DNA from: an uncultured Brachyspira sp.
GTDB taxonomy: Bacteria; Spirochaetota; Brachyspiria; Brachyspirales; Brachyspiraceae
NCBI RefSeq assembly: GCF_944388875.1
Contig: NZ_CALXKQ010000003.1
Coordinates: 124,001-188,000 of the forward strand
Length of the DNA stretch: 64,000 nt
Direction of reading: 5' to 3'
Part shown: one piece after another, positions 9,269-34,427 of the stretch
How the letters are laid out: each line of letters opens with the position of its first letter
How positions within the stretch are numbered: position 1 is the first letter of the stretch
Program-made: the position numbers and the translations under genes
Notes under the pieces: generated by a model
What the model was told of the DNA's origin: nothing
Seen by the model: only the letters and a program-made list of their open reading frames with translations
The model's database searches: none

Positions 9269-10444
9269 ATGATTAATAATATCAGTATAATAAAAAATAA
9301 ATATACATTATCAGATATTAAAGAATTAGGTTTAAAAAAATCAGAAGAAAATTTAGATTTATTAATATCAATGTTTAATTCTTCTAATTATAATATAGAA
9401 TTAAAAAGAGAAATAGTATCTTCTATAGGTAGACAGAAGAACGATGAAAAAATTTTAAACTTTATAAAAAATAATGTATATTCCTGTAATATTATGGAAT
9501 TAGTATATCAGATGTATCGTACATGTTTATATAAACAAAAAAATAATTATAACTTTCATAAATTAGGAGATGATATTTATAATTATTTTGATAATGAAGT
9601 TTTAATAAAAATGAAAGAATATTATAAATATAAAAGTAAATCTTCATCATCTAATACAAATAGAATTAAAAAAATAACCAAACCTACTTTGTTGTGTGGA
9701 GATAATATAAATACTATAAAAAAAATTCCAGATGGTGAAGTACAACTCATATTTACATCCCCTCCATATTATAATGCTAGAGAATATTCAAATTATAAAT
9801 CATATAAAGAATATTTAAATAAAATGTTTTTAACATTAAAGGAGTGTAATAGAGTTTTAGAAGACGGAAGATTTATAATAATTAATATTTCTCCTGTTAT
9901 AACAAAAAGAGTTGGTAGAGAATTTGAAAGTATTAGATATCCTATACATTTTGATTTTCATAATTTGTTATTAAAATCAAATTTTTATTTTGTTGATGAA
10001 ATACAGTGGATAAAACCAGAAGTTACTGTAAAAAATAGAAATGGCGGTTATCAACAAACTAGAATGCCTTTATCTTATAAGCCAAATTGTATAAATGAAA
10101 GCATTATGGTATATCGCAAAAATTCTAATTTTTTATTGGATAAAAATATAAAAAAATATAGTAAATCATTAGCAAATGATAAAAATATTCCTATTGATAC
10201 ATCAAATTGTTGGTATATATCTCCAAAATCAAGTAAAGTACATCCTGCAGTTTTTCCAGAAGAATTATGTAGGAAAATTTTAACATATTATTCTTTTAAA
10301 TATGACACAGTATTAGATCCATTTGCTGGTATAGGTACTTTTGGTAAAGTTGCTTTAGAAATGGAAAGATTACCAATACTATGTGAAATAAATAAAAAAT
10401 ATTATGATATCATATTAGATGGAGGTTTTTACGATGAAATTTGA
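9269..10444 (+). CDS. Type II DNA methyltransferase (amino-methyltransferase, beta-type motif order)
   Basis: 391-aa site-specific DNA methyltransferase making N4-cytosine or N6-adenine. Motif IV TSPPYYNAREYS (about 166-177) comes before the SAM-binding motif I DPFAGIGT (about 350-357), the order of beta-class enzymes. SPPY favours N4-cytosine but does not prove it. The first 130 residues lack methyltransferase motifs. AAAGGGA precedes the ATG. The 3' end overlaps the downstream endonuclease by 11 bases. The partner looks CfrBI-like, so a CfrBI-type specificity is a guess. Codon use is more A/T-rich than valS next door, which suggests acquisition by transfer. Confidence 0.88.
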   Translation: MINNISIIKNKYTLSDIKELGLKKSEENLDLLISMFNSSNYNIELKREIVSSIGRQKNDEKILNFIKNNVYSCNIMELVYQMYRTCLYKQKNNYNFHKLGDDIYNYFDNEVLIKMKEYYKYKSKSSSSNTNRIKKITKPTLLCGDNINTIKKIPDGEVQLIFTSPPYYNAREYSNYKSYKEYLNKMFLTLKECNRVLEDGRFIIINISPVITKRVGREFESIRYPIHFDFHNLLLKSNFYFVDEIQWIKPEVTVKNRNGGYQQTRMPLSYKPNCINESIMVYRKNSNFLLDKNIKKYSKSLANDKNIPIDTSNCWYISPKSSKVHPAVFPEELCRKILTYYSFKYDTVLDPFAGIGTFGKVALEMERLPILCEINKKYYDIILDGGFYDEI

Positions 10445-11303
10445 AGATAAGATAATAAATGATACTGTAGAAAAACTTATTAATGGCGATGATTATCGTA
10501 GTGAAATAATAAATGCTATAAATGCCCATTTTTTTGATTTTTCTATAAAGTTTTTTAAAGATATAGTTGCAGCAAAATTAAACAGTAATTCAATTGATTT
10601 AGAATGGTATAAAAAATATTTTATAGTTAGAGATGATTTGAAAACTGAAGATATAGCTATTTACGCTGGTATGAATAAAAAAACTATAAACAATATACAT
10701 GGAAGTGCAACAAAAGAAATTGTATTAGATGTATCAAAATCAAATTTTGACTATCTTACATCTTTAATAGATGAATTAAGTATAGATGATAATGAGGCAT
10801 TATATGTACAGATAAAAATCACTTATAATAATGTATCTGTAGAACTATCATTAACTGAAAGTTTATTAGTAATAAATGCTTTAGCTACAAAAAAAATAGC
10901 TATACGTGGTGGTGCTTGGTCTTCAATTGGAAAAAAAGTAGAAAAACCCTTGATGTTAAAATTATGTGAGTTATGTGATGTTAAAAAGAGTAGTATTAAT
11001 TCCGAAGTTTTTAAAAAAGATAGTAATTTGGATTTTGATAGAGAAGTTGATTTTAAAATTTTGACAAAAAATAATAGATGGTTAAGATGTGAAGTAAAAC
11101 TAATGGGTAAAGGAAACCCAGAATCAGCTGATTCAATAATGGCTCGTGAATCTGATATTTTTGTTGCGGATACTTTAAGTGAGCAAAATAAAAAACAATT
11201 AAAGAGTGAAAATATAGAATATTTAGAATTAAAAAATCATTCTAAAAAAGATATAATAAATAAATTTAATGAAATATTAAAAAAATTAGATGTAAAAAAA
11301 TAA
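10434..11303 (+). CDS. Type II restriction endonuclease, CfrBI-like
   Basis: 290 aa. Cuts unmethylated DNA at the site protected by the overlapping methyltransferase. Conserved tracts RGGAWSSIGKKVEKPLM, FDREVDFKI and CEVKLMGKGNPESAD are seen; the Asp...Glu-Val-Lys arrangement fits a PD-(D/E)XK nuclease core. I recall these tracts from the CfrBI family, but no search was run. GGAGG at 10421-10425 supports ATG 10434; an upstream in-frame ATG at 10419 overlaps that site and is rejected. Translation is probably coupled to the methyltransferase, whose stop codon lies inside this gene. Confidence 0.7.
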   Translation: MKFEDKIINDTVEKLINGDDYRSEIINAINAHFFDFSIKFFKDIVAAKLNSNSIDLEWYKKYFIVRDDLKTEDIAIYAGMNKKTINNIHGSATKEIVLDVSKSNFDYLTSLIDELSIDDNEALYVQIKITYNNVSVELSLTESLLVINALATKKIAIRGGAWSSIGKKVEKPLMLKLCELCDVKKSSINSEVFKKDSNLDFDREVDFKILTKNNRWLRCEVKLMGKGNPESADSIMARESDIFVADTLSEQNKKQLKSENIEYLELKNHSKKDIINKFNEILKKLDVKK

Positions 11304-20638: not shown

Positions 20639-21313
20639 TTAGATTATATTATGTAAATTATATTGCTGTTCTAAATATTCTAAAAAATACGGAAAGTCAG
20701 AATATGGATACTTATTTATATATTGATAATCATTTAATGGCGAATTATAATTTGTAAATTGTTTATATTTATTTACAGCTTCTTTATGTCTGCTGAAAAT
20801 ATCAGAATGTTTTTCTTTTATCATAGATTTAATATTATCTTTTATATTCTGCAGATTAGAAATACATTCTCCATTTTCAAGATAGAATTTCATCCAATCC
20901 TCAAATCCTCTATAAGAAAATATAAAATAATAATCAATTTGAATATCAATCTCATTTTCAATATAACATTTTAATTCTTTTATATTATTATTTAATTTAT
21001 TAAAAGCATTAAAAGGTGCTTTATCACAATCTGTTATTATAACTAATATATAATTAGAATTCTGTTCTCCAAAAGATAATATAGGATCTAATCTCATTTT
21101 TATAATCTGAGATATTTCTTCTATTGCTTTATCAGCCTTATCTTCATTTTTATGACGCTTATCTAATTGATTTAATTCGCTATAATTATCAAAATAATCT
21201 ACATTTTTATTATTTTCTAATATAGCAGATAAATATTTCTTCTCATAAATACCAGTAGAAAAACATATAAGAGTAGTTTTCTTATTTTTTATGTTTGGAA
21301 TAGTAAAACTCAT
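20639..21313 (-). CDS. RloB/AbiLii-like protein of a two-gene defence module
   Basis: 224 aa. Resembles the RloB family, a Toprim-like domain linked to abortive phage infection. The pattern is an N-terminal Glu loop (STGIYEKKYLSAI at about 19-31), an acidic strand IITDCDKAPFNAFNKL at about 94-109, and FSYRGFEDWMKFYLENG, which lines up with the SNPCFExWLLLHFE tract of RloB. It begins six bases after the AAA ATPase stop and is presumably translated with it. RloB/AbiLii members act with an ATPase partner; here the partner is adjacent. The target is unknown. Similarity was judged by eye. Confidence 0.6.
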   Translation of the reverse strand: MSFTIPNIKNKKTTLICFSTGIYEKKYLSAILENNKNVDYFDNYSELNQLDKRHKNEDKADKAIEEISQIIKMRLDPILSFGEQNSNYILVIITDCDKAPFNAFNKLNNNIKELKCYIENEIDIQIDYYFIFSYRGFEDWMKFYLENGECISNLQNIKDNIKSMIKEKHSDIFSRHKEAVNKYKQFTNYNSPLNDYQYINKYPYSDFPYFLEYLEQQYNLHNII

Positions 21314-21319
21314 AACTTA

Positions 21320-22732
21320 TCACTCATCATTACTATTAGAGTACATCTTAATAGGTAAATCATAGGCTCTAGGGAAATATTTTGCACCCAATTTATTATT
21401 TTTATAATTTTCAATTAAATTTTCTTTTGTTAATCCTTCTATATCAGAAGCAGAATATACATAAGTTTTATTTTCTTCTTTTACAACAAATTTAACTTGT
21501 TCTAAAAGCAAATATTTAAAATCCATTAGTACTATATCATGAGTAGTCATAAACAACTGTGCTGTCTGCTCTACTTCTTTATACATATTTTTTCTAAATA
21601 AAAAAAATGCAGTTTTTATCAAATCAGGCTGGACCCCGTAAAATTCATCATGTAAAGATAAAGAACCGTTTTTTAAAGATGTAACTATATTAAACATATG
21701 AAAAGCATATATTTTTGTTCCATCAGATTCTATCTCATCAAAAGGAGCTTTTTTACCATTTCTATATGAAATAACTTTTTTACGTTTCTTTATAAAATCA
21801 TTATTTTTACTGCTTAAAAATTCTAAATTCTTTAATATAGCAATAATAGCTTTTGTTTCTTTAGAAATATTTTTTTTTGATTTTATTTCATCTTCTTTTA
21901 ATAAACCAATAGATTTTTTTACATCATAAATATTCTTATCATTTTCATCTAATTCAAAAGCAATATTATCTATACCAACATCAGCTATTTTTATTAAATC
22001 TATATAAAAATCTAATAATCTATATTTATCCAAATTATTATATATTCTATTTAAAAAAACTTTTGTAAAATTTGGAACTTCCAGATAGTTTATTCCCATA
22101 TTAGTTGTCAATATAGAAGTCATAAGTTTTCTATATATTAATATATTATTAAACTCCTTTTTTTCTTTTGTGTAAATATCCATTAAAAATAATATAAATG
22201 TTTTATTAGAAGGTATTGTAATTTTTTCATCATTTGTTATTTCATTTTTTACTAAATCATTATTAGTTCTTTTAAAAACTACATTGCCATTTTCTGTAAG
22301 AATTTCTTCTGTAATTTGTATGCTTTTTTTATATTCATCATCTATTTCTTTATTTTTTATATTTAATTTGTAATTATATAATGAATATTCATTTTTATTT
22401 TCATTCAATACATTAGAATAAAACTCTATTTCAAATTTAGACTCTTCATCTTCACCATAAATCATATTAGGTTTATATAATTTTTTTAAAAAATTACTAT
22501 CCAAATTTGAGGAACATATATTCAATAAAGCTTCAAATATACTTGTTTTACCTGAACCATTATGCCCATAAAATAGGCATAATTTTGAAATATAATCATC
22601 ATTTATTTTTAACACAAAAGGATTATTATCAATACTTTCTTTATTATCATAATTTTCTAGATTTATTCTAAAATCTAATTCTATTTTATCATAAACAGAT
22701 TTATAATTTTCCACTGAAAATTTAACTAACAT
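21320..22732 (-). CDS. AAA ATPase, RloA/AbiLi-like partner
   Basis: 470-aa ATPase of the SMC/OLD-like AAA class. The N-terminus VKFSVENYKSVYDKIELDF plus the Walker A loop YGHNGSGKTS at about 58-67 are typical of RloA/AAA_15 proteins. A long A/T-rich middle follows, then SDGTKIYAFHMF, LHDEFYGVQPDL (Walker B-like Asp-Glu) and FMTTHDIVLMD, the switch His. Upstream of RloB in one transcript, it makes an AbiL-like pair. Base composition is noticeably more A-rich than the flagellar genes beside it, consistent with transfer. The start has a poor ribosome site. Confidence 0.72.
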   Translation of the reverse strand: MLVKFSVENYKSVYDKIELDFRINLENYDNKESIDNNPFVLKINDDYISKLCLFYGHNGSGKTSIFEALLNICSSNLDSNFLKKLYKPNMIYGEDEESKFEIEFYSNVLNENKNEYSLYNYKLNIKNKEIDDEYKKSIQITEEILTENGNVVFKRTNNDLVKNEITNDEKITIPSNKTFILFLMDIYTKEKKEFNNILIYRKLMTSILTTNMGINYLEVPNFTKVFLNRIYNNLDKYRLLDFYIDLIKIADVGIDNIAFELDENDKNIYDVKKSIGLLKEDEIKSKKNISKETKAIIAILKNLEFLSSKNNDFIKKRKKVISYRNGKKAPFDEIESDGTKIYAFHMFNIVTSLKNGSLSLHDEFYGVQPDLIKTAFFLFRKNMYKEVEQTAQLFMTTHDIVLMDFKYLLLEQVKFVVKEENKTYVYSASDIEGLTKENLIENYKNNKLGAKYFPRAYDLPIKMYSNSNDE

Positions 22733-22823
22733 TTTTTATATATTAACCTTTATTTCTTATTCATATAATAAAAATTAGTATACATTTTTTTAAAACTTTG
22801 TAAATACTAATTTTTATGTCTTT

Positions 22824-33611: not shown

Positions 33612-34427
33612 ATGCAAAATATAATGCCTCCTATATGGTTTGTAAATAATAATTCTTATAATAAAATATTTAACAATTATTTTAATAAACTTTCAAATGA
33701 TGATAAAGAAGAATATAAAAAACTATTTGAAAAGCCAAAGTTTTATGATAATAATTTAACTAATGATAATGTATTTTCAAATAATGATTATAAAATATCA
33801 TATTGGAATGAAGAAGGAAAACAAAAATATTCATTAGAAAAACTTCAAAAAGATTTTAATAAAGGAAAGAAAATAGATTTTTTATTTTTTTACGGACATA
33901 CTAATGATAAAAAAGAAATAAATAAATCATCATTAAGTCAATGGTATATTAAAGATTTTAAGATAAATGATATTACTTTTAATTGTATGGAAAAATATAT
34001 GATGTATAATAAGGCATTATTGTTTGATGATAAAAAAACAGCTTATGAGATTTTGAAAAGCAATCAGCCTAAAGCTATAAAAGAACTTGGAAGAAAAGTT
34101 AATAATTTTAATGGTGATGTATGGGATAAAATAAAATATACTATAGTCATTACAGGAAATTATTATAAGTTTTCACAAAATTCTGATTTAAGGAATTTTT
34201 TATTAAGCACAAAAAACAAAGTATTAGCTGAATCAAGTCCCTATGACAAAGTATGGGGAATTAAAATGAAGTATGATAATGAGAATATAGAAAACCCTTT
34301 TTTATGGAAAGGAGAAAATCTATTGGGATTTGCTTTAATGGAAGTAAGAGATGAAATAAATAAAGTATATAAAAATTATGATATAATAGATTGGCAGTAT
34401 TTCTATACTCAATATAATTTTAATTAA
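33612..34427 (+). CDS. NADAR-domain protein (YbiA-like N-glycosidase)
   Basis: 271 aa. The C-terminal 180 residues fit the NADAR/YbiA fold: FFYGHTND near 93, FNCMEKYMMYNKALLFDD at about 122-139, PKAIKELGRKV, TGNYYKFSQN, VLAESSPYDKVWGIKM at about 210-225 and LLGFALMEVRDEI. Family members cleave N-glycosidic bonds in ADP-ribose-linked or riboflavin-intermediate substrates; some reverse ADP-ribosylation of guanine in nucleic acids. The N-terminal 80 residues are Asn-rich and not recognised. AAGGA precedes the ATG. The ADP-ribosylglycohydrolase starts 23 bases later, so an ADP-ribose-related role is strengthened by context. Confidence 0.83.
   Translation: MQNIMPPIWFVNNNSYNKIFNNYFNKLSNDDKEEYKKLFEKPKFYDNNLTNDNVFSNNDYKISYWNEEGKQKYSLEKLQKDFNKGKKIDFLFFYGHTNDKKEINKSSLSQWYIKDFKINDITFNCMEKYMMYNKALLFDDKKTAYEILKSNQPKAIKELGRKVNNFNGDVWDKIKYTIVITGNYYKFSQNSDLRNFLLSTKNKVLAESSPYDKVWGIKMKYDNENIENPFLWKGENLLGFALMEVRDEINKVYKNYDIIDWQYFYTQYNFN

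Follow-up and report, generated by a model that had tools for sequence, protein, structure and literature searches.

What are an ATPase gene and a small partner gene doing directly in front of the flagellar gene flgB in an uncultured Brachyspira species, and do they form an anti-phage pair? An initial annotation of the DNA had proposed that they resemble the AbiL (RloA-RloB) systems and that the ATPase might represent a new subtype. The reading favoured here is that the two genes probably constitute an abortive-infection module of the AbiL kind, in which the small protein is divergent with a rebuilt metal site and the cassette is mobile. A search of the literature collection covered here for Brachyspira and phage defence returned no paper.

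The gene pair and its ATPase

The pair lies in the window, the 64,000-nucleotide stretch of DNA that was analysed, which belongs to a genome of 3.1 Mb. Both open reading frames were found where the initial annotation had placed them, at 20639-22732 and immediately upstream of flgB, with 6 nt between the stop codon of the first gene and the start of the second:

21320-22732, minus strand: gene A, AbiLi/RloA-type ABC ATPase, 470 aa, ATG start
20639-21313, minus strand: gene B, RloB/AbiLii-like protein, 224 aa, ATG start
22777-22804, minus strand: promoter-like site TTTACA-16-TATACT, a consensus match 45 nt before the start of A and the candidate promoter of the pair

The end of B is followed after 74 nt by the start of flgB (20564), and then by flgC and fliE. 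A and B are regarded as real genes because other Brachyspira genomes have homologous A-B pairs with the genes in this order and almost no space between them; in the intact pairs, the two genes often overlap or are separated by a few nucleotides. Their GC content (about 20.6-20.7% for A and 20.8% for B, against a median of 28%) places both among the three lowest-GC genes of the 50 non-overlapping window ORFs. As the promoter scan returned 42 sites against 34.7 expected from shuffles, the candidate promoter is identified by its position together with the almost identical sequence found in two other occupied loci that were aligned.

Gene A encodes a protein that, on its profile matches, is of the AbiLi type. 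Residues 1-451 match the PADLOC model for AbiLi (PDLC02335) with E=5e-40 and 135.5 bits, followed at a wide margin by PDC-M12A (4e-9) and PARIS AriA (1.1e-8, 33 bits), and the protein also matches AAA_21 of Pfam above the cut-off (3.7e-8). No unrelated best match emerged, which upholds the original assignment to the RloA/AbiL class. The ABC ATPase motifs are intact and are kept, save for minor substitutions, in the alignment of A (A3):

Residues 56-63: Walker A, GHNGSGKT
Residues 335-340: signature-like, ESDGTK
Residues 361-363: HDE
Residues 396-399: TTHD

In a plasmid collection, A was best matched, at ~27% identity, by ATP-binding proteins from Psychrobacter and Acinetobacter, and the top match, from Psychrobacter (27%), has an annotated RloB gene after it; no A protein was found in phage records.

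The A-rich middle of the gene, which had been singled out as the possible mark of a new subtype, does exist, but it corresponds to a poorly conserved region (residues ~255-325), of which paralogues have a much shorter version; as a variable, lineage-specific stretch of an AT-rich gene, it does not define a subtype. The unusual feature of the pair is the absent Toprim glutamate of B, described below, and not this region of A. Several poly-A runs are present in A, the longest being nine A at codon 285. A programmed or phase-variable frameshift was considered and rejected, given that the reading frame is uninterrupted in the window and that four relatives have no long homopolymer at the corresponding place.

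Other AbiLi-like genes were encountered in the course of the analysis. The window genome contains the pair a second time (L029:2470-3713, minus strand; G000:C48), with an intact B and an A that is frameshifted near an A8 run; in another genome, a further A gene (G024:C28) is broken at about residue 145. The window genome also carries a third AbiLi-like ATPase subtype of ~400 aa (L030:2724-3935, minus strand; G000:C2), without a B-like gene downstream, and similar loci occur in many Brachyspira genomes.

The small partner and its putative metal site

Gene B matched none of the models when searched by itself against profile libraries, including PADLOC and Pfam. In an alignment of B with ten Brachyspira relatives (A1, 11 members), six of the 11 members matched AbiLii (best 2.7e-5) and one matched RloB (1.4e-4). 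The comparison with AbiL, RloA and RloB profiles that had been suggested as a check was thus, with the library models, positive for A and for several relatives of B, but negative for B alone. A custom RloB profile was also built from 39 ORFs, none of them from Brachyspira, whose loci came from the Pfam RloB model, so that it is not independent of Pfam. It gave 7.3-23.2 bits for the 14 B proteins and ranked the window copy, at 13.9 bits, first of 44 window ORFs (next 4.9). The best of 1400 shuffled sequences reached 10.0 bits, a range that includes two B relatives (8.9 and 7.3 bits), and the homology therefore rests on the family and not on individual members. Profile-profile alignment (hhalign) of the 11-member B family against 14 RloBs of spirochaetes gave a weak match (P=0.057, against 0.061 for the best of ten shuffles) and set the DxD, FE.W and alanine regions in register. 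From the family matches, the custom profile and the shared motifs, B appears to be a genuine but distant relative of RloB/AbiLii, which agrees with the low RloB similarity noticed at the outset. Convincing relatives outside Brachyspira were not found in 393 spirochaete genomes, viral contigs and plasmids.

A Toprim fold of B is likely according to structure prediction. AlphaFold models had a pLDDT of 74.7 and a pTM of 0.74 on the Brachyspira alignment, and of 83.1 and 0.81 on an alignment to which 25 RloB rows had been added (A4), the latter model being biased towards RloB because of those rows. The predicted order of four beta-alpha units followed by helices agrees with Toprim topology; in the models, strand 3 ends at D95 and D97, and the helices that follow strands 1 and 4 carry E24 and E138. 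The fold suspected from the sequence is thus favoured by predicted topology, but a Foldseek search of the PDB with both models gave nothing significant and no recognisable Toprim protein among the matches listed, and no RloB chain was found in the PDB by sequence. Among the 50 matches listed from viral models, an RloB-like protein of Myoviridae sp. ct25F5 was third by E-value (0.024) and had the highest TM-scores (0.43/0.45).

The unguided A4 alignment (39 sequences in all) brings the RloB motifs G..E..Y, DxD and E.W into register with B and sets the RloB 'CEGxTExxY' opposite 'S[T/P]Gx[T/Y]ExxY' of Brachyspira. B retains G21, E24, D95, D97, E138 and W140, and both TDCD (D95, D97) and E.W (E138, W140) occur in all 14 B proteins; the DxD motif had been correctly anticipated at about residues 94-99, as both of its aspartates are invariant. 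The Toprim glutamate of the CEG motif, in contrast to RloB, is replaced by threonine in the window copy (T20) and by threonine or proline in 14/14 intact B proteins, the histidine of ExWxxxH is tyrosine (Y144; 14/14), and a conserved YSDFPY motif stands at the tail in place of NPxTxV. Since the glutamate is replaced throughout the family, B is termed RloB-like and not a standard RloB member.

Among RloBs outside this family, the glutamate is present in 43 of 44 readable copies, some of which are not independent (the N-termini of L079 and L119 look identical, and the plasmid copies from E. coli and Klebsiella closely resemble each other); the exception, L078, has Q. These copies comprise 36 from spirochaete genomes and eight from plasmids of five phyla, all with a readable motif region, and three N-terminally truncated spirochaete matches were left out. 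Two spirochaete RloBs with changed flanking motifs (CED and CEGSDKHSE) still have the glutamate.

This glutamate is regarded as a hallmark of the nuclease class, and its substitution is the standard dead mutant in AriB, the Toprim effector of PARIS, where E26A abolishes activity (PMC12409363). Given its loss, the active site of B could be dead, and B might be a non-nucleolytic Toprim relative that acts by binding, for example by sequestering tRNA or by regulating or scaffolding the ATPase, with the ATPase or a host enzyme as the effector. Such a reading, which is considered unlikely, would fit the family-wide loss of both the glutamate and the RloB histidine, as well as the dispensability of the Toprim domain of E. 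coli YbjD (Class 1 OLD) for its phage phenotype (PMC13261556). Against it, E24, D95, D97 and E138 are invariant across the B family, which is unexpected for a dead site. In the numbering of Bp OLD, a Class 2 OLD nuclease, motif comparison suggests that the residue missing from B corresponds to E400 and that those retained correspond to E404, D455, D457 and probably E508; the single substitution E400A had no discernible effect in that enzyme (PMC6755086). Bp OLD also differs from the pair in that the ATPase and Toprim parts of the latter are separate genes.

A rebuilt metal site, with E24, D95, D97 and E138 left in place, is the reading preferred here. It is also possible, if somewhat doubtful, that the B family forms a branch of its own among Toprim-type effectors, doing without the glutamate regarded as defining the Toprim active site, either with a rebuilt metal site or as non-nucleolytic proteins, and that it evolves faster than its ATPase. 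A family without that residue yet with the other metal ligands offers a natural test of the role of the glutamate.

Related systems and a proposed mode of action

AbiL of Lactococcus lactis (AbiLi-AbiLii) and RloA-RloB share with the Brachyspira pair the succession of an ATPase and a small Toprim-type protein with near-zero spacing, the AbiLi profile match of the first protein, and the RloB motifs of the second, which is, however, too diverged for a direct profile match. Judged by sequence, the pair seems to be a distant, fast-changing version of this anti-phage system, in which a killer role of B is presumed. A similar two-protein plan has been described in Clostridium algidicarnis for the NetFlax pair of an AAA protein (D29) and an RloB-like TOPRIM_OLD toxin (D44), in which the AAA protein neutralises its toxic RloB-type partner (PMC10440598).

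In PARIS (AriA-AriB), too, the sensor is an OLD-type ATPase and the Toprim effector a protein of its own (PMC12409363, PMC9122126). The common plan, together with the AriA match of A, raises the question of whether the pair is a PARIS-type system, an identity that appears highly improbable. The AriA match of A amounts to 33 bits as compared with 135 bits for AbiLi, AriB depends on the glutamate that B does not have, and DUF4435, the AriB family, is absent from every B member among the Pfam families listed. On the scores of A and this missing match, the identity was rejected.

As an AbiL-type module, the pair may be expected to work as follows. By analogy with the systems above, A would form a sensor complex that keeps B inactive, and the perception of a phage trigger by A would lead to the release or activation of B. 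B would then act as a divergent metal-dependent Toprim-type nuclease on host RNA or DNA, so that growth halts ahead of phage production. The most likely target would be tRNA, by analogy with AriB, which cuts tRNA once freed by its ATPase (PMC12409363).

Distribution and probable exchange among Brachyspira

The site in front of flgB is polymorphic. Of 26 Brachyspira genomes, flgB could be located in 25, and 24 of these have readable sequence upstream of it; five of the 24 carry the pair there (G000, the window genome; G006; G010; G016, in which the copy is decayed; and G018). The two genomes closest by flgB (G002 and G020) have no pair, and a TPR gene lies 139 nt before their flgB. In G001, the pair is located ~43 kb away from flgB, and several genomes, G000 among them (contig C48), carry a second pair subtype at other positions. 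Two features on the flgB side of the cassette bear on its relation to the flagellar genes:

20639-20662, minus strand: right junction, made up of the last seven codons of B (TATAATTTACATAATATAATC) and its stop codon
20603-20629, minus strand: sigma-28-like element TAAAGCAC-N11-ACCGACAA, a candidate promoter of the flagellar genes that lies outside the pair, after the stop codon of B and before flgB

The junction sequence TATAATTTACATAATATAATC is also found upstream of flgB in pair-less genomes. The sigma-28-like element, which resembles the sigma-28 consensus, is kept with minor changes in 13/13 genomes aligned, at pair-occupied and empty sites alike. The stretch separating B from flgB showed no terminator, and transcription could therefore run on into the flagellar operon. 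This arrangement, with the pair adjoining the rod operon, would suit a housekeeping module for flagellar or chromosome functions with no role in defence. Such a role is nevertheless very hard to reconcile with the distribution, as most Brachyspira genomes lack the pair at a site whose flgB is nearly universal, one species carries it at a distance, paralogous pairs lie elsewhere, and the flagellar promoter-like site is unchanged with or without it.

The cassette, which occupies this intergenic site and in the favoured reading would move between Brachyspira species, diverges less at synonymous third positions than its neighbours. Among G000, G006 and G018, A and B together differ less than the flanking TPR, HAD and 260-aa genes at four-fold sites (0.269-0.300 vs 0.417-0.509), isoleucine codons (0.062-0.093 vs 0.235-0.290) and two-fold sites (0.087-0.134 vs 0.170-0.221), these being descriptive ranges across three species pairs that are not independent. 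The direction was the same in a Nei-Gojobori count, a composition-corrected count and the split by codon class, the last of which was used because two-fold codons saturate early in very AT-rich genes. AT bias was rejected as the cause, since the effect persists after composition correction and the codon-class split. The lower divergence indicates that the cassette has probably moved between species; the simplest reading of these sequences would be transfer via homologous flanks, for which the Brachyspira gene transfer agent VSH-1 is a possible carrier. The dN/dS ratio is 0.30-0.60 for B, 0.21-0.34 for A and 0.06-0.16 for core genes, and the faster change of B than of A may reflect diversifying or relaxed selection. 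With its patchy presence at a single site, the cassette offers a manageable example of how gut spirochaetes exchange defence genes.

The gaps of 420-880 nt in some pair-less genomes were also considered as possible pair remnants. This was rejected, as all that was found of the pair in them was the short B-tail common to most of these sites, the gaps being occupied by other, repeat-like DNA. In genomes without the pair, such DNA often fills ~400-900 nt between the TPR gene and flgB (L053, L054, L058, L060 and L061), and its AAGTTTGTCAA / TTGACAAA-type ends suggest a MITE-like element.

Two further loci were observed elsewhere in the window. A type II restriction-modification pair at 9269-11303 (plus strand) consists of an N4/N6 DNA methylase, which matches MTase_II of PADLOC at 1.3e-136, and a CfrBI-like restriction endonuclease, which matches RE_CfrBI of Pfam at 1e-33; an AT-rich gene at 33612-34424 (plus strand) encodes a NADAR-domain protein (Pfam, 2.2e-50) that matches the PADLOC candidate PDC-M42C (1.6e-46).
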